Assembly: GCF_000234355.1 (NCBI RefSeq)
Contig: NZ_AGQV01000001.1
Coordinates: 186,001 to 250,000, forward strand
DNA from: Gluconobacter morbifer G707
GTDB lineage: Bacteria > Pseudomonadota > Alphaproteobacteria > Acetobacterales > Acetobacteraceae
DNA length: 64,000 nt
Direction of reading: 5' to 3'
In this document: positions 13,848 to 58,812 of the stretch, one piece after another
How the letters are laid out: the number at the start of each line of letters is the position of its first letter
Position numbering within the stretch: position 1 is the stretch's first letter
The notes under the pieces: generated by a model
What the model saw: only the letters and a program-made list of their open reading frames with translations
Databases searched by the model: none
What the model was told of the DNA's origin: nothing
Program-made: the position numbers and the translations under genes

Positions 13848-15223
13848 TGACGGTTCCTCCGGAAACCAGTCTGCCTCCGCGTCCCGAGCCGGAGCTGGCA
13901 ACACGCCGGTTCCTGTTGCTTCAGGGGCTGATGGGACCGTTTTTCGAGCGGGTGGGACGACGTCTGCTGGATGAAGGGTATGGCGTTACCAAGATCAACT
14001 TCAATGGTGGAGACCGGCTGTTCTGGCGTCTGCCGGACGGGGTGGACTATCGCGGAACGCTGCAGGCCTGGCCGGATTATCTGAAGCGGTTCATTCAGCA
14101 GGAGGGCATCACCGATGTTCTGCTGTTCGGAGACTGCCGGGTTCATCACGCTGCTGCGCTGGAGGTCTGTCGGGATCTGCATGTGCCGGTGCATGTCTTC
14201 GAGGAAGGATATCTCCGCCCGGACTGGGTGACACTGGAACTTGGTGGAGTGAACGGTCATTCCAAGCTCCCCCGCGATCCGGAATATTATCTGGAGGAAG
14301 CATCCCATCTTCCGCCCGCGCCCGTGCATAAGCCGGTTCCTTCTTCCTTCCGTCGCCGGGCGGCTGAAGGTATTGCCTATAATACGGCCGATATCCTGAC
14401 GCGCTGGTATTATCCGTACTGGACCAACCACCGCCCGTGGCACCCCATTGTCGAAGGGTTCGGCTGGCTTCGTCGTCTGTCGGGCCGTCGGGAAGCCGCG
14501 CAGCGCAGTGAGGAAACGATGCGTCGGCTGAAGGCAAGCGGCGCACCCTACATGCTTTTTCCCCTTCAGTTGAATGCCGATGCCCAGATCAGGCTGCATT
14601 CCGGTTTCAGCGGAGTGCAGGAAGCGATCGAGCGTGTCATTACCTCCTTCGCCGCCGCTGCCCCGCAGGAAATGCGACTGATCATTAAAGAACATCCCCT
14701 TGATAACGGGATGCATGACTGGCGGCGGATCATCGCGAAAATCGCGCGGCGTCATGGGGTTCTTGGGCGTATCGGCTATGTAGAGAAAGGCGATATCGCT
14801 TTGATGGTCCGCGAGGCGAAAGGCGTTGTGACTATCAACAGCACGACGGGAACCCTGGCTATTGCGTCAGGTGTGCCCGTCATCACCATGGGGCAGGCGA
14901 TCTACAATATTCCGGGTATTACCCATCAGGGCAGCCTTGACGGGTTCTGGACTAGCCCCCAGGCTCCTGATCCCGAGGTTTTCGCGGCTTTCCGGCGTGT
15001 CTTGATCGAATACTGTCTTGTTCCCGGCGGCTTCTTTTCGGAAACGGGTCTGAACACGCTGATCGAGGCGGTCATAAAGCGGCTTGAACGCCATTGTCCC
15101 ATCCGCTTCGCCATGGCGATGGAAGAGAAGGGCGAGAACGTCGCCGCCTGGGACTGCCTGCGCGATCCGATCCTCGGTTTTTCCAGTCGGCTGGCCGATA
15201 TCGTGGGGGCCTCTTCGGAATGA
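13844..15223 (+). CDS. kpsS: KpsS-like capsule polysaccharide biosynthesis protein (first Kdo transferase)
   Basis: A 459-residue KpsS family protein. Family motifs are clear: FLLLQGLMGPFFERVG, INFNGGDRLFWRLP, LLFGDCRVHH, VFEEGYLRPDWVTLE, GVNGHSKLPRDPEYY, IIKEHPLDNG, and VVTINSTTGTLAIASG. KpsS adds the first beta-Kdo to the lysophosphatidylglycerol anchor, after which KpsC extends the linker at the cytoplasmic membrane. The ATG at 13844 overlaps the kpsC stop; the frame is open 32 codons upstream, but that part overlaps kpsC and reads as low-complexity. The stop overlaps the following GT4 start. The three genes form one coupled unit. No kpsM, kpsT or kpsE lies in this window. Confidence 0.9.
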   Translation: MMTVPPETSLPPRPEPELATRRFLLLQGLMGPFFERVGRRLLDEGYGVTKINFNGGDRLFWRLPDGVDYRGTLQAWPDYLKRFIQQEGITDVLLFGDCRVHHAAALEVCRDLHVPVHVFEEGYLRPDWVTLELGGVNGHSKLPRDPEYYLEEASHLPPAPVHKPVPSSFRRRAAEGIAYNTADILTRWYYPYWTNHRPWHPIVEGFGWLRRLSGRREAAQRSEETMRRLKASGAPYMLFPLQLNADAQIRLHSGFSGVQEAIERVITSFAAAAPQEMRLIIKEHPLDNGMHDWRRIIAKIARRHGVLGRIGYVEKGDIALMVREAKGVVTINSTTGTLAIASGVPVITMGQAIYNIPGITHQGSLDGFWTSPQAPDPEVFAAFRRVLIEYCLVPGGFFSETGLNTLIEAVIKRLERHCPIRFAMAMEEKGENVAAWDCLRDPILGFSSRLADIVGASSE

Positions 15224-16422
15224 CGACGCCGTCCACGGTCTATCTGCTCGATATCTCCCGTATCCTGGCCCGCGCCGAAGAGGCGGTTCCGACGGGGATC
15301 GACCGCGTGGAACTGACTTATGCGCGTTACCTTCTGGCACATCGTCCGGACCGTGTCCTGTTCTGTGCCCTGCACCCGATCGGCGTAATGGGGGGAATTA
15401 CGACGGAACTGGCGGCAGAGTTGGTTTCAGCGCTTGCGGCGAAATGGGACGAGCAGGCGCAGGACATTTCTGTCTCGAAGCTGAAGCAGAAGATCCGCCG
15501 GACGCTTCTGTTGCAGCGCCTGCCGAAAAGACCGGGTCTGGTTCATCTGCTGGTGTCCCATCACCATCTGACCCGCCCCCGTGCCATCCAGTCGCTTCTG
15601 AAGCGGACCGGTGCGCGTTTCGTGCCGATGATCCAGGACCTTATTCCGCTGGAGTTTCCGGAATACGCCCGGCCGAAGGAGCCCGCGCGTCATGCCGAGC
15701 GCATGAAGACGGTGGCGCGGTTCGCGGATGCGGTAATCGTGACGTCCACGGCGGTTCGTCAGTCGCTTGAGCGCTGGCTGAAGGAAAAGGAAGACCGGAC
15801 GCTTCCGGTCTGGCACGTGCCGCTGGGCGTCGCAGATGTGTCGGGGACGGATATCACGTCTGCAACCGTGCCTGTTCCTGTCCGGCCCTATTTCGTGTGT
15901 CTCAGCACCATCGAGCCGCGCAAGAACCATCTGCTGCTGCTGAATGTCTGGCGTCGGATGGTAGAGCAGATGGGCAACAGGGCGCCCATGCTGATCGTGA
16001 TCGGTAAGCGGGGCTGGGAGAACGAGAACGTCGTGGACATGCTGGAGCGCTGTCCGGCGCTCAAGGGAAATGTCATTGAGTACAATGTCCTGTCTGATCA
16101 GGATGTGATCAAACTGCTCAGATACAGCCAGGGACTGTTGTTTCCATCCTTTACGGAGGGGTTCGGGCTGCCGTTGGTGGAAGCCCTGTCGCTCGGGGTG
16201 CCGGCTATCGCGTCCGATATTTCCGTCCTGCGGGAGATCAGCGGGAATGTGGCCGAATATCTTGATCCACTGGATGGTCCCGCCTGGCAGAAGGTTATTC
16301 TGGAGTTTGCGGAAAATGGTCCGCGTCGGCAGGAACAGATCCGCCGCCTTGATGGGTGGAAGCCCGTGAGCTGGGATGACAGCATCGCACAGGCATTGGC
16401 AGTGATCGAAGGCGCGTTCTGA
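15220..16422 (+). CDS. glycosyltransferase family 4, third gene of the kps unit
   Basis: A 400-residue GT-B glycosyltransferase. The N-terminal part starts MTTPSTVYLLDISRILARA. The C-terminal donor domain has VCLSTIEPRKNHLLLLNVW, FPSFTEGFGLPLVEALSLGVP and the usual E-x7-E arrangement. The ATGA overlap with kpsS at 15220 sets the start and implies coupling. It is a distant relative of the two GT4 genes at 27.3-30.2 kb, sharing the STIE-RKNH-L and EGxGLPxxESL blocks. It probably transfers an early sugar of the capsule repeat or an adaptor residue next to the Kdo linker. Its donor is unknown. Confidence 0.87.
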   Translation: MTTPSTVYLLDISRILARAEEAVPTGIDRVELTYARYLLAHRPDRVLFCALHPIGVMGGITTELAAELVSALAAKWDEQAQDISVSKLKQKIRRTLLLQRLPKRPGLVHLLVSHHHLTRPRAIQSLLKRTGARFVPMIQDLIPLEFPEYARPKEPARHAERMKTVARFADAVIVTSTAVRQSLERWLKEKEDRTLPVWHVPLGVADVSGTDITSATVPVPVRPYFVCLSTIEPRKNHLLLLNVWRRMVEQMGNRAPMLIVIGKRGWENENVVDMLERCPALKGNVIEYNVLSDQDVIKLLRYSQGLLFPSFTEGFGLPLVEALSLGVPAIASDISVLREISGNVAEYLDPLDGPAWQKVILEFAENGPRRQEQIRRLDGWKPVSWDDSIAQALAVIEGAF

Positions 16423-48043: not shown

Positions 48044-48967
48044 TCAGGAGCCCTCTGCCGCGTCCACGGTGCCGAGGACGGCCGTGCGGACCGCTGCCGG
48101 ACGATCATGACGCAGCATCCAGATGCCCGATCCGATGATCAGCAGGGCGCCGGCCAGCATTGCGATACCGGGGATTTCGCCGAAGCCGAGCCAGCCGATC
48201 AGCGCCGCCCAGAGCAGGCCCGTATAGGCGAACGGGCCAATGGCGGAGACCTGTGCGGAGGCGAAGGCTTCTGTCTGGAGGACCTGTGCGATACCGGCGA
48301 AGGCGCCGACCACGACAAGGCAGAGCGCGTCTTTCAGGCCGGGCATGATCCCGATGAAAGGGAGGGGGGCGGCTGTCATGACCGTCATGAGGATGGCCTG
48401 CCACAGGGCGATCGTCGTGCTGGCCTCGGTGGCGGAAAGCTGGCGGATCTGCATCGTGGTCAGAGCGCCGACGGCGCCCTGCGCGAGTGCGATGAGGTAG
48501 ATGATGGTCGAGACGGACCCGGCTGCGCCTGTGTTGAGGAGGCCCTTGCCGAGCGCGACAACAACCACGCCGGAAAACCCGATGAGGACTGCGATCCAGC
48601 GCTGCAGGCCGGGGCGTTCATGCAGAAGGGGAATGGACAGCAGGACGAGGAAGAGCGGCTGCGTGTAGGAGAGGACCTGCTGTTCCGCCAGGGGGAGGCG
48701 CGTGACGGTCACGACGACCATGATCATGCTGATCAGACCGATGACCGAGCGGAGAAGATGGCCTTGGAAATGATGCGTTCTGAGAACGATCTTCGTGCGT
48801 GAGGCGATGATGAGGACGAACGGGAGAGAAAACAGGTTACGGAAGAAAATGATTTCCAGGGCCGGAAGCCGTGATCCCGTCAGTTTCTGCAGGGCGTTGA
48901 GGGCTGCCGTGAAGAAGGTTGCCGATGCGAGCAGCAGTGCGCCGCGTTTCAGATCATGCTTCATCAT
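48044..48967 (-). CDS. DMT-superfamily (EamA) transporter
   Basis: A 307-residue protein with ten predicted membrane helices in two EamA repeats (LLASATFFTAALNALQKLTG at the start; YLIALAQGAVGALTTMQIRQ beginning the second). Such carriers move amino acids, purines or other metabolites, usually outwards. GAGGT lies seven bases before the start. It lies 161 bases downstream of pxpA. An 11-bp inverted repeat fills that gap, so it may have its own regulated promoter. The specific solute is unknown. Confidence 0.8.
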   Translation of the reverse strand: MMKHDLKRGALLLASATFFTAALNALQKLTGSRLPALEIIFFRNLFSLPFVLIIASRTKIVLRTHHFQGHLLRSVIGLISMIMVVVTVTRLPLAEQQVLSYTQPLFLVLLSIPLLHERPGLQRWIAVLIGFSGVVVVALGKGLLNTGAAGSVSTIIYLIALAQGAVGALTTMQIRQLSATEASTTIALWQAILMTVMTAAPLPFIGIMPGLKDALCLVVVGAFAGIAQVLQTEAFASAQVSAIGPFAYTGLLWAALIGWLGFGEIPGIAMLAGALLIIGSGIWMLRHDRPAAVRTAVLGTVDAAEGS

Positions 48968-49102: not shown

Positions 49103-49128
49103 GACGTGATATGAAATTCTTATGGATG

Positions 49129-49896
49129 TCAGTCATCCAGGCGGCAGGCGGGGGTGAGAATGGCGCCGGTGGCCTCGATTTCCGCCCGGATGGCTCTGGC
49201 GAGTTCCAGGGAACCGGGTGTGTCGCTGTGGACGAGAATGGACTTCGCCTTCACGGGCAGGCGGGAGCCGGTGGCCGTTGTGACCGAGCCGTCTTCAAGG
49301 AACTGCCAGACGCGGGCGCGGATGGCGGACAGGTCGTGGATGACGGCGCCGGGCTGACCGCGGGGGACGAGTGTGCCCTGATCGGTATAGGCGCGGTCGG
49401 CGAGGAAGAGGGTCCGGGTCCGCAGTCCCGCTTTTTCCGCTGCACGTTCAGTCAGCTGGCCTGACATGCAGAAGACGGTCAGTTCACGGTCCAGGGCGGC
49501 GATGGCGCGTGTCAGGCGCAGGGCCAGGGCTTCATCGGCGTTGGCCATGTTGCCGAAGGCGGCATGGTAGCTGACATGCGTCACTCGGTGGCCGTGAAGG
49601 GCGGCTAGGCTCTGGAGAGCGCCGATCTGGTAAACCATCATGGATTCCATATCGGCGTCGGAGACCGTCATGGCGCGCCGTCCGAAGCCCATCAGATCCG
49701 GCAGGCCCGGATGAGCGCCGATTCCGACGCCCTTTTCTTTCGCCTTGCGGACTGTCTCGTTCATGATCGCGTAATCACCGGCATGAAAGCCGCAGGCGAT
49801 GTTCGCGGAAGAGACAACGTCCATCAGTCCGTCATCATCGGCAATTTTCCAGCGGCCGAAACCTTCACCCATGTCGGAATTGAGGTCGATTTTCAT
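49129..49896 (-). CDS. pxpA: 5-oxoprolinase subunit A (LamB/YcsF family)
   Basis: A 255-residue LamB/YcsF protein of normal length. Signatures are MKIDLNSDMGEGFGRW, SSANIACGFHAGDY, IGAHPGLPDLMGFGRR, YQIGALQSLAALHG and the closing ILVHSDTPGSLELARAI. It is one of three subunits that hydrolyse 5-oxoproline to glutamate with ATP. Its start overlaps the pxpC stop by four bases. The order pxpB-pxpC-pxpA matches the Escherichia coli operon. Confidence 0.92.
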   Translation of the reverse strand: MKIDLNSDMGEGFGRWKIADDDGLMDVVSSANIACGFHAGDYAIMNETVRKAKEKGVGIGAHPGLPDLMGFGRRAMTVSDADMESMMVYQIGALQSLAALHGHRVTHVSYHAAFGNMANADEALALRLTRAIAALDRELTVFCMSGQLTERAAEKAGLRTRTLFLADRAYTDQGTLVPRGQPGAVIHDLSAIRARVWQFLEDGSVTTATGSRLPVKAKSILVHSDTPGSLELARAIRAEIEATGAILTPACRLDD

Positions 49897-50897
49897 GCTT
49901 TGCTTCCGATTCTGCTGCCGTTGCGGGACTGGGCGGACTGACGGTAGAGGGTCGCCATCATGCGCAGATCATCAAGATAGGCCCTGATGGGCTGCATGGC
50001 GGCGATGCCTGTCTGGTGGTCGACGTCCTGAAAGCGGATCCGGGTTCCGATGCGTGCCTGGGCGAGGCGCCAGAGATCGGCTTCGATCACGGTGGCGATA
50101 CGGGGATAACCGCCGGCCGTATTAGCGTCGGCAAGCTGCACGATGGGTTCACCGGCGGGTGGAACCTGCACGATGCCGGGGATGATGCCGTAGGACCGCA
50201 GTTCCACCCGTTTCTGCAGGCTCAGGGGCGCACCGCTGAGACGGTAGCCCACGCGGTTGCTCTGCGGGGTGATGCGCCAGGCTTCCTCCCAGAAACGCTT
50301 CCGGGACTCTTCATCGAAGCGCAGATAATCCGTGCCCGGGATGGCGCGCAGGGTGATGGTTTTTTCGCCTGCTGATGCGCTTCCCAGAACGGCGGAAGGT
50401 GAAACGGCGCCGTATCCTGACAGAATGGTCGTTGCGGGATGTGTTTCCAGTGTGTCGCCGGTTTCGAGAAAGCGTCCGTCAAGGCCGCCGAAGCCGCCAC
50501 GGAGCTGTGTGCTGCGCGAGCCGAGAACGACCGGTACCTGGATGCCGCCGCCGAGGCAGACATATCCACGGGCGCCTGCTGACGGGATACCGATGCGCAG
50601 GACCTGTCCGGCCTGAGCGGTGGCCACGGACCAAGACAGGACCGGCTCACCGTCCAGTTCGAGCGGAGCAGTGATCCCGGTGACGGCGAAGTTGGTTGGC
50701 GTTTCGAACCTGATGACGAAGGGGTAGGTCTGCAGTTCGATGCAGGCGGCGTCCGGTTCGTTGCCGAGAAGCGTATTGCCGATCTGGAGGGCCAGCGGGT
50801 CCATGACACCGGAGCTGCCGACGCCGAGATTGCGGTATCCCGGACGTCCCGGATCCTGCACGGTGTTGAGCGGTGCGGTCTCGAGGATCGTGATCAC
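49893..50897 (-). CDS. pxpC: 5-oxoprolinase subunit C / biotin-dependent carboxyltransferase-like protein
   Basis: A 334-residue KipA/PxpC protein (AHS2 domain), related to allophanate hydrolase subunit 2 and urea amidolyase. Family motifs include TVQDPGRPGYRNLGVGSSG, MDPLALQIGNTLLGN, AYVCLGGGI-like GYVCLGGGIQVPVVLGSRS, and YGIIPGIVQVPPAGEPIV. It works with PxpB and PxpA to open 5-oxoproline. The family name carboxyltransferase and the divergent accB-accC genes leave open a biotin-linked reaction. Four-base overlaps on both sides show tight coupling. Confidence 0.92.
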   Translation of the reverse strand: MITILETAPLNTVQDPGRPGYRNLGVGSSGVMDPLALQIGNTLLGNEPDAACIELQTYPFVIRFETPTNFAVTGITAPLELDGEPVLSWSVATAQAGQVLRIGIPSAGARGYVCLGGGIQVPVVLGSRSTQLRGGFGGLDGRFLETGDTLETHPATTILSGYGAVSPSAVLGSASAGEKTITLRAIPGTDYLRFDEESRKRFWEEAWRITPQSNRVGYRLSGAPLSLQKRVELRSYGIIPGIVQVPPAGEPIVQLADANTAGGYPRIATVIEADLWRLAQARIGTRIRFQDVDHQTGIAAMQPIRAYLDDLRMMATLYRQSAQSRNGSRIGSKA

Positions 50898-51589
50898 AGG
50901 TCGATGCTTTCCGGATAAAAGCGGATGCGGTCCCCGATGGCGAAGAGGGAGGGAGGCTTCCGGTGAGGATCGAAAAGGCAGATTTCGGTGTAACCGATCG
51001 AATTCCAGCCATTCGGTCCGGTCAGGGCGGAGATCCCGGCCTGCATGCCGCCGATTGTCACGGTGCCGGCTGGCATGTTCAGGGAGGGGACGGATTTGCG
51101 CGGGGTGGCGATGCGTGGGTCCAGCCCGTGCAGATAGCCGAAGCCGGGTGCGCTGCCGACGGCGCAGACCGTATATTCCCCGGCGTGATGGAGGGCGATG
51201 ACCTCCTCGGGGGACAGGCCGGTATGGGCTGCGACGGCTGCCAGATCGTCTCCGCGCTCGCCCCCGTACTGGACGCCGATGTCGAAGACGCGGCCTTCGA
51301 TCTGCAGGGGGGGTAATGTCTCCCAGGCTTCGCGCAGCCAGTGTACGATCCGTTCCGGCTGTTCGGGGGGCTGGGAGAAAATCAGCAGGAGATTGGTCAC
51401 GCCCGGGACGAGTTCCTGAATGTCGGGGCGTTTTTCAGCATGGGCGATGAGGGCCCAGATACGCTGCTGCTGGGTCATGGTGAATGCGCCGGGCGCCTCG
51501 AACAGCATGGCGCGCGTGCCCATCATGCTGATGACGGGGGCGCTGGAGTCCTGATGCTGGTCCAGCAGGTGTCGCGTATCGGAGCTCAA
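50894..51589 (-). CDS. pxpB: 5-oxoprolinase subunit B (KipI/PxpB)
   Basis: A 231-residue AHS1-domain protein. Motifs are VPGVTNLLLIF near residue 60, VQYGGERGDDLAAVA, APGFGYLHGLDPRIATPRK, and AGTVTIGGMQAGI. It pairs with PxpC to form the carboxylate-activating half of 5-oxoprolinase. It is the first gene of the minus-strand pxp operon. Its promoter should lie in the 51,590-51,900 region, which carries two 19-bp direct repeats. Confidence 0.92.
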   Translation of the reverse strand: MSSDTRHLLDQHQDSSAPVISMMGTRAMLFEAPGAFTMTQQQRIWALIAHAEKRPDIQELVPGVTNLLLIFSQPPEQPERIVHWLREAWETLPPLQIEGRVFDIGVQYGGERGDDLAAVAAHTGLSPEEVIALHHAGEYTVCAVGSAPGFGYLHGLDPRIATPRKSVPSLNMPAGTVTIGGMQAGISALTGPNGWNSIGYTEICLFDPHRKPPSLFAIGDRIRFYPESIDL

Positions 51590-51903
51590 GGCATTCAGTT
51601 CCCGGGGCTATGACAGGTTCTGTCGCCGTCAATGATTCCATCATCGAGGCGGTATCGTAACGATATGTCTGACGGGCACCGTGGTGACCAGAGGCATTTG
51701 AGGTTTAATGTCATCGGATTATCTTATGGGTCATGTCGAGGTGGTTCGGCTTCCATCGGATTATGTTATGGGGCAAGAACGAACTGCTCTTGGTGTTTGT
51801 AAAACAACTCCATTAGCCTCGACAGAATATTATACCGGAGGGGCCGTATTCCATGCGGTCCGGTCGGTGATTTCCCTTTATTCCAGAAATGGGTCCCATT
51901 CGC
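51590..51903. promoter_or_regulatory. divergent control region of the pxp operon and the biotin-carrier operon
   Basis: About 314 bases between pxpB and the SDR gene. It holds no gene. Two 19-bp direct repeats lie at 51712-51730 and 51754-51772, centred 42 bp (four helical turns) apart, about 125-180 bases from each start codon. The spacing suits a regulator acting on both directions. No confident -35/-10 pair is assigned for either operon. Confidence 0.6.
51712..51772. repeat. pair of 19-bp direct repeats, candidate operators
   Basis: CATCGGATTATCTTATGGG (51712-51730) and CATCGGATTATGTTATGGG (51754-51772) differ at one base. Their complement shares 15 fixed positions of CCCATANNAYAATCCKATG with a site at 56305-56323 between aspC and aspA. 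Same-direction spacing of 42 bp suggests cooperative binding on one face of the helix. Confidence 0.7.
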
Positions 51904-52659
51904 ATGAGCAATACTCCTTATCGCACCGCTCTCGTTACTGGCGCTTCTTCCGGGATTGGCGCTGCCATCGTGCGCCGGCTGAGCGAAAGCGGCATCAAGG
52001 TTCATGCTCTGGCGCGGGATGCAAAGCGTCTTGAAGATCTGGCCAAGGAGACGGGCTGCGTTCCTCACGCCGTCAGCGTGTCGGATCAGGCCGGTCTGGA
52101 GGCTCTGCTCAGCGGTCTGGAAATCGATGTGCTGGTCAACAATGCCGGTCAGTCCCGCACGGGCAACATCACCAAGACCACGCCGGAAGACATCGATGCC
52201 CTGGTTGATGTGAACCTGCGTGCGGTTCTGCAGCTTACGCGTCTGGTCGTGGCGGGCATGATCGAGCGTGATCGTGGGCATATCGTCAATATCAGCTCGA
52301 TTGCCGGGCATTATGCCTTTGCGGGTGGCAACACCGTTTATCATGCGACCAAGGCAGGGGTGCATTCGCTGTCCCAGCAGCTGCGCTGTGATCTGTTCGG
52401 GCGCCACATCCGCGTGACGGAAGTTTCTCCGGCCCGTGTGGAGACCGAGGTTTTTGGCCGTCTGATCGGTGACATGGCCGAGGCGAAGAAGCGTTTCTTT
52501 GACGAGTACGAGTCCCTGCTGCCGGAAGACATTGCAAATTCCGTTGCCTTTGCCGTTCTGGCGCCCCAGCGCATGAATGTCAGTTTCATGGAAGTGCTGC
52601 CCACGATGCAGGTGGTCGGCGGCCTGAATTTTGCGAAGAAAACCTCTACCCCGGCATGA
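51904..52659 (+). CDS. classical short-chain dehydrogenase/reductase, first gene of the biotin-carrier operon
   Basis: About 251 residues. Motifs are TGASSGIG near the N-terminus, NNAG, NISSIAG with the catalytic serine and YHATK. It resembles 3-hydroxy acid dehydrogenases of the YdfG type (EDIDALVDVNLRAVLQLTR; ISPARVETEVFG-like VSPARVETEVF). ATG 51889 is an alternative start; neither has a clear ribosome site. Its stop overlaps the accB-like start (ATGA). It might act on the alcohol or keto form of the operon substrate. The substrate is not known. Confidence 0.78.
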   Translation: MSNTPYRTALVTGASSGIGAAIVRRLSESGIKVHALARDAKRLEDLAKETGCVPHAVSVSDQAGLEALLSGLEIDVLVNNAGQSRTGNITKTTPEDIDALVDVNLRAVLQLTRLVVAGMIERDRGHIVNISSIAGHYAFAGGNTVYHATKAGVHSLSQQLRCDLFGRHIRVTEVSPARVETEVFGRLIGDMAEAKKRFFDEYESLLPEDIANSVAFAVLAPQRMNVSFMEVLPTMQVVGGLNFAKKTSTPA

Positions 52660-53108
52660 CGGCCGTGGATATTGCGCAGATCAAACGCCTGATCGACCTT
52701 ATGTCCCGGGCTCCGGTTGCGGAGCTTGAGATTGAGGAAAACGGATGGAAAATCCGTCTGGCACGTGGAGCGGGGGATGCGGGGGCGGTAACGCCTTCCG
52801 TGGCTTCTGTGCCTGCATCCGTGCTGGAACAGGTGGTTCCCGCCAAGGCTGCGCCGGTGGCGTCTTCCGGGGCGGACGTGATCATTACTGCGCCGTCCTA
52901 TGGTGTCTTTCATCTGGCACCTGCTCCGGATGCTTCGCCCTATGTGACCGTCGGTCAGGAGATCGAGGCCGGGCAGCAGGTCGGGCTGCTGGAGGCCATG
53001 AAGGTTTTCAACCCCGTGCGTGCGACAGCGCCGGGAAGAATCGCCGAGGTTCTGGTGGATGCGGGTACGGAAGTGGAGGAGGGGACGCCCCTGTTCCGGT
53101 TGGCATGA
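52656..53108 (+). CDS. biotin carboxyl carrier protein (AccB type)
   Basis: A 150-residue carrier. The N-terminal helical part ([14 protein letters not shown]) and Ala/Pro/Val-rich linker (about 40-70) lead to a biotinyl domain with the target lysine in [11 protein letters not shown] (residue about 115). It carries carboxybiotin from the adjacent biotin carboxylase to a carboxyltransferase. Most cells have one AccB for fatty acid synthesis; this copy sits in an operon opposite pxpBCA and is probably dedicated to that pathway. Both ends overlap neighbours by four bases. Confidence 0.88.
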
Positions 53109-54472
53109 GTGATATGCAGCGTTTCAGAAGAGTCCTGATTGCCAATCGCGGCGAAATAGCTTTGCGCATCCAGCGCGCCTGCCGTCAGCTTGGTCTGGAG
53201 ACGGTGGCTGTCCATTCGGAAGCTGATGCCGACAGCCGTCATGTGCGCGAGGCGGATATTGCCCTCTGTATTGGTCCGGCTGCGGCTTCGAAGAGCTATC
53301 TCGATGCGGACGGGTTGCTTCTTGCCGCGAAAGTGACCCGGGCGGATGCGATACATCCGGGGTATGGGTTCCTGTCGGAAAATGCGGACTTTGCTGATGC
53401 CGTGGAAGCGGCGGGTCTGACGTTCATTGGCCCGACGGGCGCGTCCATTCGCATGATGGGTGACAAGATCACCGCAAAGCGTGCCATGCAGGAGGCCGGC
53501 GTGCCCTGTGTTCCTGGTTCTGACGGACCGTTGCCTGCGGCGGCGGCAGAGGTGCGGGCCATTGCGCAGGCGGTTGGTTTTCCTGTGATCGTCAAGGCGT
53601 CAGGCGGTGGCGGCGGTCGCGGGATGCGGGTGGTGCATGGTCTGGATGAACTGGAAGAGGCTGTTTCCCTCACCGCGAAAGAGGCGCAGCAGGCATTCGG
53701 AAATCCGACGCTGTATCTCGAACGGTACATGCAGAAGCCCCGTCATGTTGAAATCCAGGTTCTGTGCGATACGCATGGTACGGCCTTGTGGCTCGGAGCG
53801 CGGGACTGCTCTTTGCAGCGGCGGCATCAGAAGGTTCTGGAAGAAGCGCCTGCGCCCGGTATTCCGCCGGAGACCATTGCGGAGATCGGGGAGCGCTGTG
53901 CCCGGGCCTGTCGTCAGATCGGCTATCGCGGGGCGGGGACGTTCGAGTTCCTGTATGAAGACGGGATTTTTGCATTCATCGAGATGAATACCCGTGTGCA
54001 GGTCGAGCATCCCGTGACCGAGGAAATCACCGGCATCGATATTGTTGCGCAGCAGCTGCGCATTGCACAGGGTGAGGCGCTGGCCTTCCGGCAGGAGGAT
54101 GTCCGGATGCATGGCCATGCGATCGAGTGCCGTCTTAATGCCGAGGATGCGAAAACCTTCCTGCCGTCCCCCGGAACCGTGACGCGGTGGGACCTTCCGG
54201 GTGGGCCGGGCGTCCGGATCGATACGCATGTGGTCAACGGTTATACGGTTCAGCCTTATTATGATTCCCTGATCGGGAAGATCATCAGCTATGGCGCGAG
54301 CCGGGATGAAGCCATTGCCCGGATGCGGATTGCATTGGCGGAAATGTGCGTCGAGGGAATTTCGACGAATATTGGCCTGCACCAGGCGCTGCTGGATGAT
54401 CCGCAGTTCCGGAAGGGTGGCGTGAATATCCACTATCTGGAGCGCTGGCTGGCAGAAAGGGCGGATTCATGA
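53105..54472 (+). CDS. biotin carboxylase (AccC type)
   Basis: A 455-residue biotin carboxylase of standard size. [20 protein letters not shown] begins the N-domain; the ATP-grasp domain has [35 protein letters not shown], and [22 protein letters not shown], with the catalytic residues intact. It uses ATP and bicarbonate to carboxylate the biotin of the preceding carrier. The start overlaps the accB stop by four bases, and its own stop overlaps the next gene. A second copy distinct from the housekeeping accC is likely. Confidence 0.9.
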
Positions 54473-54903
54473 AAACTTCGGAAAAGCGTGGTCCTGCTTT
54501 CGACGTGCTGCCTTCGCCAGAGGACATCAGCCAGATCGCGGTCTGGATGCAGCAGGCAGGGCTTGAGACGCTGGAGCTGTCTGACGGTAAAGGGGCGCGG
54601 CTGTTTCTTCGGGTGGCAGGTGGGTCGGTCAGCAGGCCGATCCCGCATGAAGAAACGGCGCCAGCCGAGCCTTCAGCACGTGGCATTGCGGTCAAGGCGC
54701 CCTATTTCGGGCATCTCGGCCTGACCGGGCTGGCAAAGCCGGGGAAAATTGTAAAACGGGATGATGTTCTGGCGTTTCTGACGCTGGGAAATCTTCAGAT
54801 TCCCGTACAGGCGCCCATGGATGGAACTGTTGTGGATGTTCTCGGACAGGATGGTGAACTGGCCGGTTATGGGGCCGTCATCCTGCATCTGGAACCGGCA
54901 TAG
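54469..54903 (+). CDS. AccB-like carrier lacking the biotinylation lysine
   Basis: A 144-residue protein laid out like the AccB two genes upstream. It has an N-terminal helix ([30 protein letters not shown]), a short Pro/Ala linker, then a barrel-sandwich domain ([21 protein letters not shown] ... [17 protein letters not shown]). The hairpin that should read EAMK-V reads TLGNL, with Asn in place of the biotinyl lysine. It cannot be biotinylated at the usual site. It may be a structural or regulatory partner of the carboxylase. It overlaps accC by four bases and ends the operon. Confidence 0.8.
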
Positions 54904-54923
54904 CCTGACGCAGGCTTGCCGGC

Positions 54924-54950
54924 CCCTCCCGGACAGGGAGGGTTTTTTTT
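54924..54950 (+). terminator. rho-independent terminator after the biotin-carrier operon
   Basis: CCCTCCC, a five-base loop and GGGAGGG are followed by eight T. The stem starts 20 bases after the last stop codon. A second hairpin without a T-run (GAGGAAGCC...GGCTTCCTC, 54969-54992) lies next to the end of the convergent aspC. Confidence 0.9.
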
Positions 54951-55001
54951 GATCTGTTCTTTTGGGGTGAGGAAGCCTTTCGGGGCTTCCTCATGGCACG
55001 C

Positions 55002-56204
55002 TCAGCTGAGGGAGGTTACGAACTCGGCAATGCGGCGGCAGCCTTCTTTCAGCGTTTCCGGGTCGGTGGCGTAGGAAATGCGGAAGAACGGGCTCATGCC
55101 GTAGGCACCGCCCTGAACGGAGGCGACCTGTTTTTCCTCCAGAAGGGCCATGACGAAATCTGCATCCGTCTTGAGGTGGCGTCCTTTGGGGGTTGTCTTG
55201 CCGAGACAGGGTGCGATTTCCGGATAGACATAGAACGCGCCCTGCGGGGTATGGCAGGTCACGCCGGGGATGGCGTTGAGCAGTCCGACCACAAGGTCGC
55301 GTCGTGCCTGATATTCCGCGGCGCGGTCTTTCAGGAAATCCTGTGGCCCTTCGAGCGCCGCGATGGCTGCGGCCTGTGCCATGGTGTTGATGCCGCTGGT
55401 GGACTGGCCCTGCATGTTGTTCATGGCAGCGATCAGGTTGCGCGGGCCGCCGCAGTAACCGACGCGCCAGCCCGTCATGGCGTAGCTTTTGGAGACGCCG
55501 TTTACGGTCAGCACGCGGTCTTTCAGGCGGGGTTCGACTTCTGCGAGCGTGCAGAACTCGAAGTCGTCATAGACGAGGTGTTCGTAAATATCGTCCGTCA
55601 TGATCCACACATGGGGATGCTTCAGCAGGACGGCGGCGATGTCTTCCATCGCTTCACGGGGGCAGCAGGCGCCGGTCGGATTGTTGGGGAAGTTCAGGAC
55701 GAGCCATTTGGTCTTCGGGGTGATGGCGGCATCCAGGGCTTTCGCGGACAGTCTGAAATTGTCGGAGGCGGGGCAGGGAACCTGTACGATTTTCGCTCCG
55801 CAGAGGCGGGCGATGTCCGAATAGCTGATCCAGTATGGTGTTGGCAGAACGACTTCGTCGCCGGTGTTGCAGGTGGCCATCATCGCATCGAAGATGATCT
55901 GCTTGGCGCCATTGCCGACGAGGATTTCATCCAGGGCATAATCCAGATGATTTTCGCGGAGGAATTTGGCCTGTATGGCTTTTTTCAGGGCCGGTTTGCC
56001 GTCCTGCGGGGGATATTTGGTGTCGCCTCCGCGCGCGGCGTTCACTGCGGCTTCGATGACGTGCGGCGGGGTGGGGAAATCCGGCTCGCCGGATGACAGG
56101 CTGACGATCTTGAGGCCTTCCGCCTTGAGTTCGCGTGCCTTGTCGGTCATGGCGGCAGATGCCGAAACCCCGATTCCGTTCAGTCGATCAGCAAAGCCAG
56201 GCAT
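55002..56204 (-). CDS. aspC: aspartate aminotransferase (class I, PLP-dependent)
   Basis: A 400-residue aminotransferase of the AspC Ib type. SLSSGEPDFPTPPHV at the N-terminus, LNFPNNPTGAC, the PLP lysine in NGVSKSYAMTGWRVGY, and FRISYATD near the end are present. It interconverts aspartate/2-oxoglutarate and oxaloacetate/glutamate. Start 56204 is set by GGAGAG eight bases upstream; the frame stays open 35 codons further without one. It is divergent from aspA, and a perfect CCCCATA/TATGGGG palindrome lies between them. Confidence 0.9.
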   Translation of the reverse strand: MPGFADRLNGIGVSASAAMTDKARELKAEGLKIVSLSSGEPDFPTPPHVIEAAVNAARGGDTKYPPQDGKPALKKAIQAKFLRENHLDYALDEILVGNGAKQIIFDAMMATCNTGDEVVLPTPYWISYSDIARLCGAKIVQVPCPASDNFRLSAKALDAAITPKTKWLVLNFPNNPTGACCPREAMEDIAAVLLKHPHVWIMTDDIYEHLVYDDFEFCTLAEVEPRLKDRVLTVNGVSKSYAMTGWRVGYCGGPRNLIAAMNNMQGQSTSGINTMAQAAAIAALEGPQDFLKDRAAEYQARRDLVVGLLNAIPGVTCHTPQGAFYVYPEIAPCLGKTTPKGRHLKTDADFVMALLEEKQVASVQGGAYGMSPFFRISYATDPETLKEGCRRIAEFVTSLS

Positions 56205-56303
56205 TGATGTCTCTCCGTTGCCGCGTGGATCATTGCGCATATGCGTGTCGCGGCTATCGTAAATCGTTTCGCATCTGCCAAGATAGCGCCGAAAATTGTC
56301 TGG

Positions 56304-56326
56304 CCCCATATGACAATCCTATGGGG
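56304..56326. promoter_or_regulatory. palindromic LysR-type site between aspC and aspA
   Basis: CCCCATA and TATGGGG are separated by nine bases. The core is ATA-N9-TAT, a T-N11-A LysR-type pattern similar to the NAC consensus. It also fits the 19-bp motif CCCATANNAYAATCCKATG shared with the two repeats upstream of pxpB. It is about 100 bases from the aspC start and 113 from the aspA start. Confidence 0.65.
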
Positions 56327-56438: not shown

Positions 56439-57881
56439 ATGATGACATCTGCCGTCCAGCCAGACGTTCGTATCGAGCGGGATCTGCTTGGTGAAATGCC
56501 GATACCGGCCAATGCGCTCTGGGGCGTGCATACGCGCCGTGCCGTTGAGAATTTCCCGATCAGTGGCGAGCCGGTGGGCGCATTTCCGGACTTCATCCGC
56601 AGCTTCATCACCATCAAGCGCGCTGCGGCACGGGCGAACAGGGCGCTGGGATATCTGGATCCGGAACGGGCCGATCTGATTGAAACGGCCTGCAGCCTGC
56701 TGCTGGAACGGACCGATTACAGCCGGGATTTCATTGTCGATGCCATGCAGGGGGGGGCAGGCACGTCCACCAACATGAATGTCAATGAAGTCATCGCCAA
56801 TGTCGCTCTCAAACTGGCGGGGCGGGAGCCCGGTGACTATGGGGTTCTGCACCCGAACGACCATGTCAACATGGCGCAGTCCACCAATGATGTTTATCCC
56901 ACCGCGTTGAGGCTTGGCGTGCTGGACGCAACGCAGCCGCTGCTTGCCGCGCTGGATGGGCTTGCACAGAGTCTTGGAGAAAAGGCCCTGACATTTTCCC
57001 CGATCCTGAAAGTCGGGCGGACCCAGCTCCGGGACGCGGTTCCGATGACGCTGGGTCAGGAATTCAGGGCGTTCCAGAGCGCGATCGAGACGGAAATCCG
57101 GCAGATCCGGGAGCAGTCCGCAGCTTTTCTGGACGTCAATCTCGGGGGAACGGCCATCGGGACGGGTCTGAACACAGACCCGCGTTATGCCGATATGGTT
57201 CTTGAGGAACTCCGGGACCTGACTGGTCTGCCGATCAGAGCTGCCGCCGACAGGATCGAAGCGACGTCAGACGTGGGCGTTTTCGTACTCTTCTCGGGTG
57301 TGCTCAAGAGGCTGGCTCTCAAGCTATCCAAGATTTCCAGTGATCTGCGTCTGCTTTCGAGCGGGCCGCGGGCCGGTCTGGGAGAGATCATTCTGCCGGC
57401 CGTTCAGGCCGGGTCGTCGATCATGCCGGGGAAGGTCAATCCGGTGATCCCGGAAGCGGTCAACCAGGTTGCCTATCTGGTGGCGGGATATGACGTGACG
57501 CTGACCATGTGCGCGGAGGGCGGGCAGTTTCAGCTGAACCCGTTCGAACCCATGATCGGTTACTGTCTCTTTTCGTCTCTGAAGACGTTGACGTCCGCCG
57601 TCGAACTTCTGACGACGAAATGCATCTCGGGCATTGTGGCGGATGCGGAGCGCTGTGCGTATCTGTTCAGCCGCAATATTGCGATTGTCACGGCTCTTGT
57701 GCCGGTTCTGGGATATGATTTCTGTGCCGGAATTGCCCGCCGGGCCTTGGCTGAGAACCGGACGGTGACGGAACTGGTTCTTCAGGAAAAGCTGTTGTCC
57801 AGGGAGGAGCTGGCCGTGCTCCTGCAGCCGGAGCTGCTGACGCGGCCGAATGTCGGAAGGGCCGGCGCTGTTATTCCGTAG
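56439..57881 (+). CDS. aspA: aspartate ammonia-lyase
   Basis: About 480 residues of the fumarase/aspartase superfamily. It has RIERDLLGEMPIPANALWGVHT-type opening residues, MQGGAGTSTNMNVNEV, HPNDHVNMAQSTNDVYPTA and the catalytic loop GSSIMPGKVNPVIPEAVNQV, the PE after NPV favouring aspartase over fumarase C. It releases ammonium from aspartate to give fumarate. The start at 56439 is uncertain; the frame extends upstream to 56382 with no better ribosome site. The 3' end overlaps the convergent lysR by 11 bases. Confidence 0.88.
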   Translation: MMTSAVQPDVRIERDLLGEMPIPANALWGVHTRRAVENFPISGEPVGAFPDFIRSFITIKRAAARANRALGYLDPERADLIETACSLLLERTDYSRDFIVDAMQGGAGTSTNMNVNEVIANVALKLAGREPGDYGVLHPNDHVNMAQSTNDVYPTALRLGVLDATQPLLAALDGLAQSLGEKALTFSPILKVGRTQLRDAVPMTLGQEFRAFQSAIETEIRQIREQSAAFLDVNLGGTAIGTGLNTDPRYADMVLEELRDLTGLPIRAAADRIEATSDVGVFVLFSGVLKRLALKLSKISSDLRLLSSGPRAGLGEIILPAVQAGSSIMPGKVNPVIPEAVNQVAYLVAGYDVTLTMCAEGGQFQLNPFEPMIGYCLFSSLKTLTSAVELLTTKCISGIVADAERCAYLFSRNIAIVTALVPVLGYDFCAGIARRALAENRTVTELVLQEKLLSREELAVLLQPELLTRPNVGRAGAVIP

Positions 57882-58812
57882 AGGGATGTGTTCCGGGCCA
57901 GTTTTGGGAGGCGGCCATGGTCTGTGCCAGATCGATCAGGCGTTCGCGGACAGCGACGGAGGCCTCGGTTTCCGGAACCAGGTCCGGAACGCATAGCGAG
58001 ACATTCTCGCTGATGACAGGATTGCGGAGCGAATAGATGCGGGATTTGCCTTCGACCGCGATCCGGCTGGCAACGGACCAGGGCAGGATCGTGCTGCCAA
58101 TGCCTTCCAGGATCGCGCCCTGGAGGGTCGTCAGGGCCTCGATTTCCGCGACGATCGTGGGTTCCAGACTTTTGCGGAGGAAGGCCATGTCTATGGCCTT
58201 GCGGACAAAGTTGTGCGTGGGCGGAACCAGAAGGGGAATATCCGTGATATCCGCCAGCTGTACGGTGTTCTGCCCGTCATGCGGTATTTCGAGGGAGGAG
58301 GGGGCGAGAAGAAAGAATTCTTCCTTCATCAGGGGCGTGAAGCTGACCCCTTTCATGGGGCCGGAGCCATGGATGACTGCCATGTCCAGACGCCCTGTCA
58401 TGACCAGTTCGCTGTAGATGTCGTCAAAGCTTTCGGTGAGATGCAGGACGATACCGGGAAGTTCTTCCCGGACGCGGCGCAGAAGTTCCACCGACAGGGT
58501 GGAGCCGGCGCTGTAGGGCGAAAGTCCGACGGAGACCTTTCCGACAAGGGGACCGGTGCCCTGGATGATCTCGACCATGGCGCGGTCGAACTGTTTGCTG
58601 AGGATCTGTACGTGACGGTAGAGAACGGATCCTGCGATTGTCGGGGTGACGCCGCTTTTGCTGCGGATGACCAGTTTCTGGCGGAAGGCAGTTTCAAGCG
58701 CGGCCAGCTGCTGGCTCAGTGCGGGCTGGGCGATATTCAACAGATCGGCGGCACGGGAAATGCTGCCGAGGTCGATTATCTTCACGAATGCCTGCAAGCG
58801 TCTGATGTCCAA
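57871..58812 (-). CDS. LysR-family regulator, NAC-like
   Basis: A 313-residue LysR regulator. The HTH reads MDIRRLQAFVKIIDLGSISR, then AADLLNIAQPALSQQLAALE, close to Klebsiella NAC as I remember it. The effector domain continues IRSKSGVTPTIAGSVLYRH, VSVGLSPYSAGSTLS, and RLDMAVIHGSGP. NAC activates nitrogen-scavenging genes without a coinducer. Here it adjoins aspA/aspC and a TonB receptor and is the best candidate to bind the 56304 palindrome and the repeats upstream of pxpB. Another effector-responsive LysR role cannot be excluded. Confidence 0.85.
   Translation of the reverse strand: MDIRRLQAFVKIIDLGSISRAADLLNIAQPALSQQLAALETAFRQKLVIRSKSGVTPTIAGSVLYRHVQILSKQFDRAMVEIIQGTGPLVGKVSVGLSPYSAGSTLSVELLRRVREELPGIVLHLTESFDDIYSELVMTGRLDMAVIHGSGPMKGVSFTPLMKEEFFLLAPSSLEIPHDGQNTVQLADITDIPLLVPPTHNFVRKAIDMAFLRKSLEPTIVAEIEALTTLQGAILEGIGSTILPWSVASRIAVEGKSRIYSLRNPVISENVSLCVPDLVPETEASVAVRERLIDLAQTMAASQNWPGTHPSTE

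Follow-up and report, generated by a model that had tools for sequence, protein, structure and literature searches.

A candidate LysR operator linking a pxp and biotin-carboxylase cluster to aspC in Gluconobacter morbifer

Introduction

Why does a 19-bp motif recur in two separate control regions of one gene cluster, and which protein reads it? The cluster lies in a 64,000-nt stretch of the Gluconobacter morbifer G707 genome (assembly GCF_000234355.1, contig NZ_AGQV01000001.1, positions 186,001 to 250,000), called the window here and numbered from its first base. From left to right its genes are MFS, EamA, pxpA, pxpC and pxpB on the minus strand, SDR, accB1, accC and accB2 on the plus strand, and then aspC (minus), aspA (plus), lysR (minus) and a TonB receptor gene (plus). 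The motif stands twice between pxpB and SDR and once between aspC and aspA. An earlier note on this DNA proposed that a common regulator, with the NAC-like product of lysR as prime candidate, joins lactam (5-oxoproline) and aspartate nitrogen metabolism through these sites.

We favour a narrower reading, to which we give a probability of roughly 0.78: the motif would be the operator of the NAC-like LysR protein, with a local regulon over the pxp-acc-SDR-aspC cluster. Of the earlier proposal, the three sites stand as one signal, and the linked LysR is the best candidate for reading it, since the site occurs in the intervals that lysR genes share with aspC or SDR; the parts concerning aspA and NAC-type control were not supported. 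Our reading is based on what the sequence shows: the sites themselves, how well they are conserved, a constant spacing to a -10-like hexamer, and linkage to this LysR clade. Most likely aspC and SDR-acc are targets of the operator, and pxpBCA and EamA probably are.

The motif and its sites

Exact matches to the 19-bp consensus occur at 51712-51730 (-), 51754-51772 (-) and 56305-56323 (+), and 15 of the 19 positions are identical in all three, just as first described. Counts in the source genome are partly circular because the consensus was derived from these same sites: with up to three mismatches the window holds four matches where 0.30 would be expected (none of 100 shuffles gave as many), the fourth being the palindromic aspC site read in reverse; the whole genome of 2,887,061 bases has 11 such matches, versus 2 with a reversed control pattern, and the seven that fall outside the cluster all have three mismatches. 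The genome scan that the earlier note had called for found no scatter of exact matches in coding DNA; there are these three and no others, all in the cluster. Evidence from relatives, given below, is free of the circularity.

The core is a LysR-type operator, ATM-N9-TAT (T-N11-A; M is A or C), which bears out the LysR-type element first seen in it, and relatives keep it beside the same genes. At 101 bp from aspC and 115 bp from aspA, the aspC site forms an almost perfect inverted repeat. The other two sites are 116 and 158 bp from SDR and 153 and 195 bp from pxpB, the pxpB distances being measured from a chosen homology start and not a start codon. A fourth site, absent from the earlier note, was found here in the pxpA-EamA interval. 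Table 1 lists these features.

Table 1. Proposed operators, promoter elements and genes in the window
Feature	Position	Strand	Remarks
SDR-proximal operator core ATAACATAATCCGAT (ATC-N9-TAT toward SDR)	51755..51769	-	Centre 51762, predicted at -64 of SDR promoter; kept with downstream block AGANCNAA
Second operator core of pxpB-SDR interval, ATAAGATAATCCGAT	51713..51727	-	42 bp from SDR-proximal core
aspC operator core ATA-N9-TAT, ATAGGATTGTCATAT	56308..56322	-	Centre 56315, predicted at -66 of aspC promoter
Fourth operator core ATA-N9-TAT, ATAAGAATTTCATAT, pxpA-EamA interval	49109..49123	-	About 140 bp upstream of EamA start
Conserved block AGAACGAACTGCTCTTGG downstream of SDR-proximal operator	51776..51793	+	Candidate activator sub-site over -35 region
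-10-like TAGCCT of SDR	51814..51819	+	TANNNT at offset 43 in 30/31 genomes
-10-like TACGAT of aspC	56256..56261	-	TANNNT at offset 45 in 28/30 genomes
EamA-type transporter	48044..48967	-	Probable target of fourth site; weak transporter model matches only
pxpB, pxpC, pxpA	49129..51589	-	Probable target, transcribed away from shared pxpB-SDR interval
SDR, first gene of SDR-accB-accC-accB2 run	51889..52659	+	Proposed target; profile matches
accB1, accC (biotin carboxylase), accB2	52656..54903	+	Presumed co-transcribed with SDR
aspC, aspartate-transaminase-like	55002..56204	-	Proposed target; aspartate transaminase model 520.5 bits, cut-off 617
NAC-like LysR	57871..58812	-	Candidate binder; Pfam HTH_1 and LysR_substrate

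Conservation in close relatives

Cores of the form AT[AC]-N9-TAT or ATA-N9-[GT]AT were sought up to 250 bp upstream of each gene in close relatives, counting distinct genomes. The spacer of nine is by far the commonest at all four proposed targets: it was found upstream of aspC in 30/30 genomes (the next commonest spacer in 14 genomes), of SDR in 31/31 (next in 15), of pxpB, whose interval is shared with SDR, in 30/30 (next in 19) and of EamA in 23/30 (next in 8). At aspC all 30 genomes have the strict ATA-N9-TAT. The upstream regions of MFS, taken as a control, have the core in 1/30. Relatives that keep the genes thus keep the sites, which is how the comparison proposed by the earlier note came out.

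Both sites of the pxpB-SDR interval were located in most relatives, 36-42 bp apart; in locus L047, with an interval 3 kb longer, it took a separate scan to pick up the other site, and in L104 the pair was not located. Across 23 de-duplicated aspC promoters, the 18-nt site has a mean column identity of 0.90, the 60 nt upstream of it 0.43 and the 75 nt downstream 0.63, and none of 101 non-overlapping windows is as conserved as the site. In a pattern search of 28 genomes, 30 of 31 exact matches among those listed fall in the cluster by their coordinates.

The wider LysR family

Named genomes were scanned with a LysR alignment and the best 80 loci kept. At a homology threshold of 50 bits, pxp homologues were found within about 10 kb at 71 of these loci, together with accC at 68 and with both accC and aspC at 61; the remaining nine have aspC only. 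Divergent lysR-aspC intervals contain ATA-N9-TAT in 26/28 loci (shuffle maximum 7/28), or in 19/21 once repeats of one genome and loci of the window's clade are set aside; lysR-SDR intervals, all outside that clade, contain it in 43/46 (shuffle maximum 5/46). No other spacer between 5 and 15 is found in more than 7/28 and 6/46. These counts are not independent events, because the loci are kin to each other. Loci L177, L185, L187, L056 and L057 have no full ATA-N9-TAT. The lineages with the site in an interval shared with lysR include other Acetobacteraceae, Burkholderiales and Rhizobiales, spanning Alpha- and Betaproteobacteria, and between clades the nine inner bases vary and the half-sites are constant.

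A number of observations weigh against the LysR operator reading. In the window's own clade the site upstream of lysR is not enriched (spacer 9 in 18/31, spacer 11 in 19/31), although L052 and L103 have a possible one; nor is it enriched upstream of tonB (14/21 against 15/21). EamA is without a site in 7/30 genomes, and among the listed matches of the 28-genome search one exact match (G169:C1:1460080) lies outside the cluster. The aspC site has T/C changes in its middle and the pxpB-SDR sites have ATC/GAT in one half, so the two kinds are variants and not copies. The site is present in 0/42 accB1 promoter regions of Rhizobiales, and control of pxp/acc is therefore not supported there. It is also missing at aspC from all eight tandem aspC-lysR loci without pxp, and from all three Streptomyces loci.

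Finally, two genomes keep the sites with lysR undetected or broken: G117, which keeps the cluster and in which no LysR relative was found at E <= 1e-40, and G366, whose lysR has an in-frame stop. This persistence is what might be seen if the sites were a LysR-type box bound by another regulator of the genome. LysR regulators have T-N11-A in common, and the G. morbifer genome holds other LysR genes, for example one of 32% identity near its second pxp cluster. However, other Acetobacteraceae, Burkholderiales and Rhizobiales have the site in an interval shared with genes of the same lysR clade, the expected place of that regulator's own operator, and we regard a different binder as unlikely. The losses of lysR in G117 and G366 may be recent.

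At the G117 locus (L053), IS3-like transposase reading frames occupy 14500-15864 beside aspC, at the place of lysR in relatives. At the G366 locus (L088), codon 29 of lysR is an in-frame TAG and the aspC match is broken into two overlapping pieces, which may point to a cluster in decay.

Presence of the LysR gene was also surveyed. Among 397 sampled genomes of the family, 39 have a match at E <= 1e-60, of which 27 are orthologues (68-100% identity) and the others share 38-44%; the nearest named relative of the window protein is in Gluconobacter albidus (92%). Within the window's genus, 3 of 14 sampled genomes have the gene. The 11 that do not are no clean negative control, because they are without the cluster aspC and have only aspC paralogues of 49-52% identity.

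Promoter geometry and proposed regulation

The site keeps a fixed distance from a -10-like hexamer. Offsets for SDR and aspC (Table 1) are anchored on the site and counted in bases after TATG; in the wider groups 23/26 and 15/16 de-duplicated promoters have TANNNT where SDR has it (44 after TAT). If TANNNT is taken as the -10 box, the sites are centred at about -64 (SDR) and -66 (aspC). The primary site of LysR regulators is described as a T-N11-A centred near -65 (PMC4834489). A further conserved block, AGAACGAANTGCTCTTGG in the case of SDR, lies between site and -10, and a similar one, CAGA...TCTTGG, is present in the aspC promoters of Burkholderiales and of other Acetobacteraceae; this block is a candidate activator sub-site overlapping the -35 region. 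At pxpB one fixed -10 offset was not found, and a less conserved block follows the site.

The conserved blocks might instead be parts of the core promoter or of an RNA leader, needing no dedicated regulator. The fixed spacing to the hexamer and the inverted repeat at aspC would suit this, but the sites are upstream of the inferred starts, hence not transcribed from them, and clades that differ in the nine inner bases still share the half-sites. We consider it highly improbable.

Under the LysR operator reading, ATM-N9-TAT, centred near -65, would be occupied by one LysR dimer and the block between it and the -35 region by another, which would lead to activation of aspC and of SDR-accB-accC-accB2. 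On the other strand, pxpBCA would depend on the paired site of the pxpB-SDR interval, and the EamA transporter would depend on the fourth site, so that LysR would couple the pxp/biotin-carboxylase pathway to aspC. From sequence we infer binding by the window protein, activation over repression, and the start sites; the inducer would perhaps be 5-oxoproline or another amide, and the regulon may have a role in nitrogen supply. In general LysR biology, autoregulation is expected from a shared divergent interval, and it would be expected in the wider family, in which lysR and the gene diverging from it have the operator between them.

aspC, aspA and the NAC question

The window site lies between aspC and aspA, and the earlier note had placed both genes under the control. 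Where the two are adjacent the site is between them in 13/13 genomes. Where they are apart, the moved aspC keeps it in all 12 genomes with the upstream region in hand, and ATA-N9-TAT is found within 420 bp upstream of the separated aspA in 0/14. The site goes with aspC when the genes part and is absent at aspA, so it belongs to aspC, and aspA was rejected as a target. A weaker, different sequence, ATA-N9-GAT, is present upstream of the separated aspA in 10/14 genomes, mostly 46-61 bp away; it could be a weaker site or chance, and it counts against a clean reading.

The operator of NAC is ATA-N9-TAT, and the NAC gene is under a sigma-54 promoter. The window LysR has both Pfam domains well above their cut-offs (HTH_1, 64.0 bits against 26.6; LysR_substrate, 94.7 against 28), and its best NCBIfam model is the NAC equivalog, whose cut-off of 309 bits it misses at 295. 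Of ten proteins scored on this model, the Komagataeibacter-type orthologue of L047 fails as well (298.6); eight pass that are either E. coli NAC itself or other LysRs with linkage to aspC or pxp, and the tenth, the LysR of L170, a locus without pxp, also passes, at 316.7. A search for a sigma-54-like promoter with up to two mismatches found none in the 300 bp upstream of the window lysR and none in 8/9 other loci, the ninth (L217) having one match with two mismatches; the same search found one with one mismatch upstream of E. coli nac. Exact matches in the window's genome are confined to the cluster, as judged with a single consensus pattern that misses degenerate sites.

These results bear on whether the sites belong to a NAC-type nitrogen regulator that connects lactam with aspartate metabolism and counts aspA as one of its targets. 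In its favour are the position of the window site between aspC and aspA and the ATA-N9-GAT at the separated aspA. It has against it the distribution of ATA-N9-TAT when the genes part (aspA 0/14 versus aspC 12/12), the missed NAC cut-off, the missing sigma-54-like promoter, unlike E. coli nac, and the confinement of exact matches, among those listed, to the cluster. We judge it very unlikely. The cut-off and the promoter leave NAC-style global nitrogen control unsupported, and the protein is better described as NAC-like with a regulon that looks local than as NAC.

Overall identity of the window LysR to E. coli NAC is 36.2%, and 60.0% over residues 1-65. Over those residues E. coli NAC has 81.5% identity to the protein of L054 and 86.2% to a Variovorax protein, and in a quick LysR tree it falls among the cluster-linked LysRs on a long branch; the branch of Cbl is long too. 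The cluster LysRs of Variovorax and of some Acetobacteraceae, at 82-86% identity to E. coli NAC over residues 1-65, pass the NAC model and sit at ATA-N9-TAT. Descent of the global enteric NAC from a local regulator of the pxp-acc-SDR-aspC cluster is a tentative idea that we would sooner doubt than accept; on that view, many of the proteins to which databases would give the name NAC probably regulate such clusters, with a biotin-dependent pathway for a lactam or amide.

Significance

A description of this regulon was not found in the open-access literature text searched, and absence there is not proof that none exists. What began as three look-alike sequences becomes a regulon open to testing, for which targets can be named and which has an operator and a promoter geometry shared by Alpha- and Betaproteobacteria, and a poorly understood pxp and biotin-carboxylase cluster is tied to aspC and to one regulator. 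There is also a caution for annotation, since proteins that pass NCBI's NAC model in several lineages adjoin this cluster and may not be global nitrogen regulators.

Comparison with known systems

The lactam chemistry of the earlier note stands in part. Like the pxpABC 5-oxoprolinase, the window has a PxpB that passes its 5-oxoprolinase model (185.6 against 145.55) and a PxpA that passes a subfamily model (335.6 against 226). It differs in that PxpC falls below its 5-oxoprolinase equivalog cut-off (291.8 against 500 bits) and in that the cluster includes accB and accC, the biotin-carboxylase gene accompanying pxp in 68/80 of the wider loci. The substrate may be other than 5-oxoproline.

Urea carboxylase, a biotin-dependent enzyme, is the other point of reference. 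PxpC, PxpB and AccC of the window each match parts of its model, as would a split equivalent of one enzyme, although each is far under the 1303.85-bit cut-off. The products of 49129-54903, a PxpBC-type carboxyltransferase with its own biotin carboxylase and BCCP, look like a split enzyme of the urea-carboxylase type. Another BCCP-like protein is encoded by accB2 (54469-54903); its match to Biotin_lipoyl is weak (27.2 bits) and, by eye, the AMK motif of accB1 is absent from it.

Second pxp clusters were seen in two genomes. That of G. morbifer (G000:C10:233000-249000, L060) has the order TonB-MFS-pxpB-pxpC-pxpA-accB-accC, a 32% LysR fragment match at its edge and promoters without a close motif match. 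Another (L115, G174:C4:250000-268000) has its own LysR, of 41% identity, and a motif-like site, CATAGGATTGTCCGATGG, upstream of pxpB.

As a regulator, the window LysR resembles enteric NAC in its best NCBIfam model and in the identity over residues 1-65; it differs in scoring under the cut-off, in having no sigma-54-like promoter in the 300 bp searched and in its linkage to one metabolic cluster. It resembles LysR regulators such as ThnR (PMC4834489) in its HTH_1 and LysR_substrate domains, the palindromic T-N11-A, the predicted centres at -64 and -66 and the close divergent promoters. It differs from them in that sites here also stand at promoters away from lysR (pxpB-SDR and EamA) and in that the lysR of the window's clade is without an enriched site of its own.

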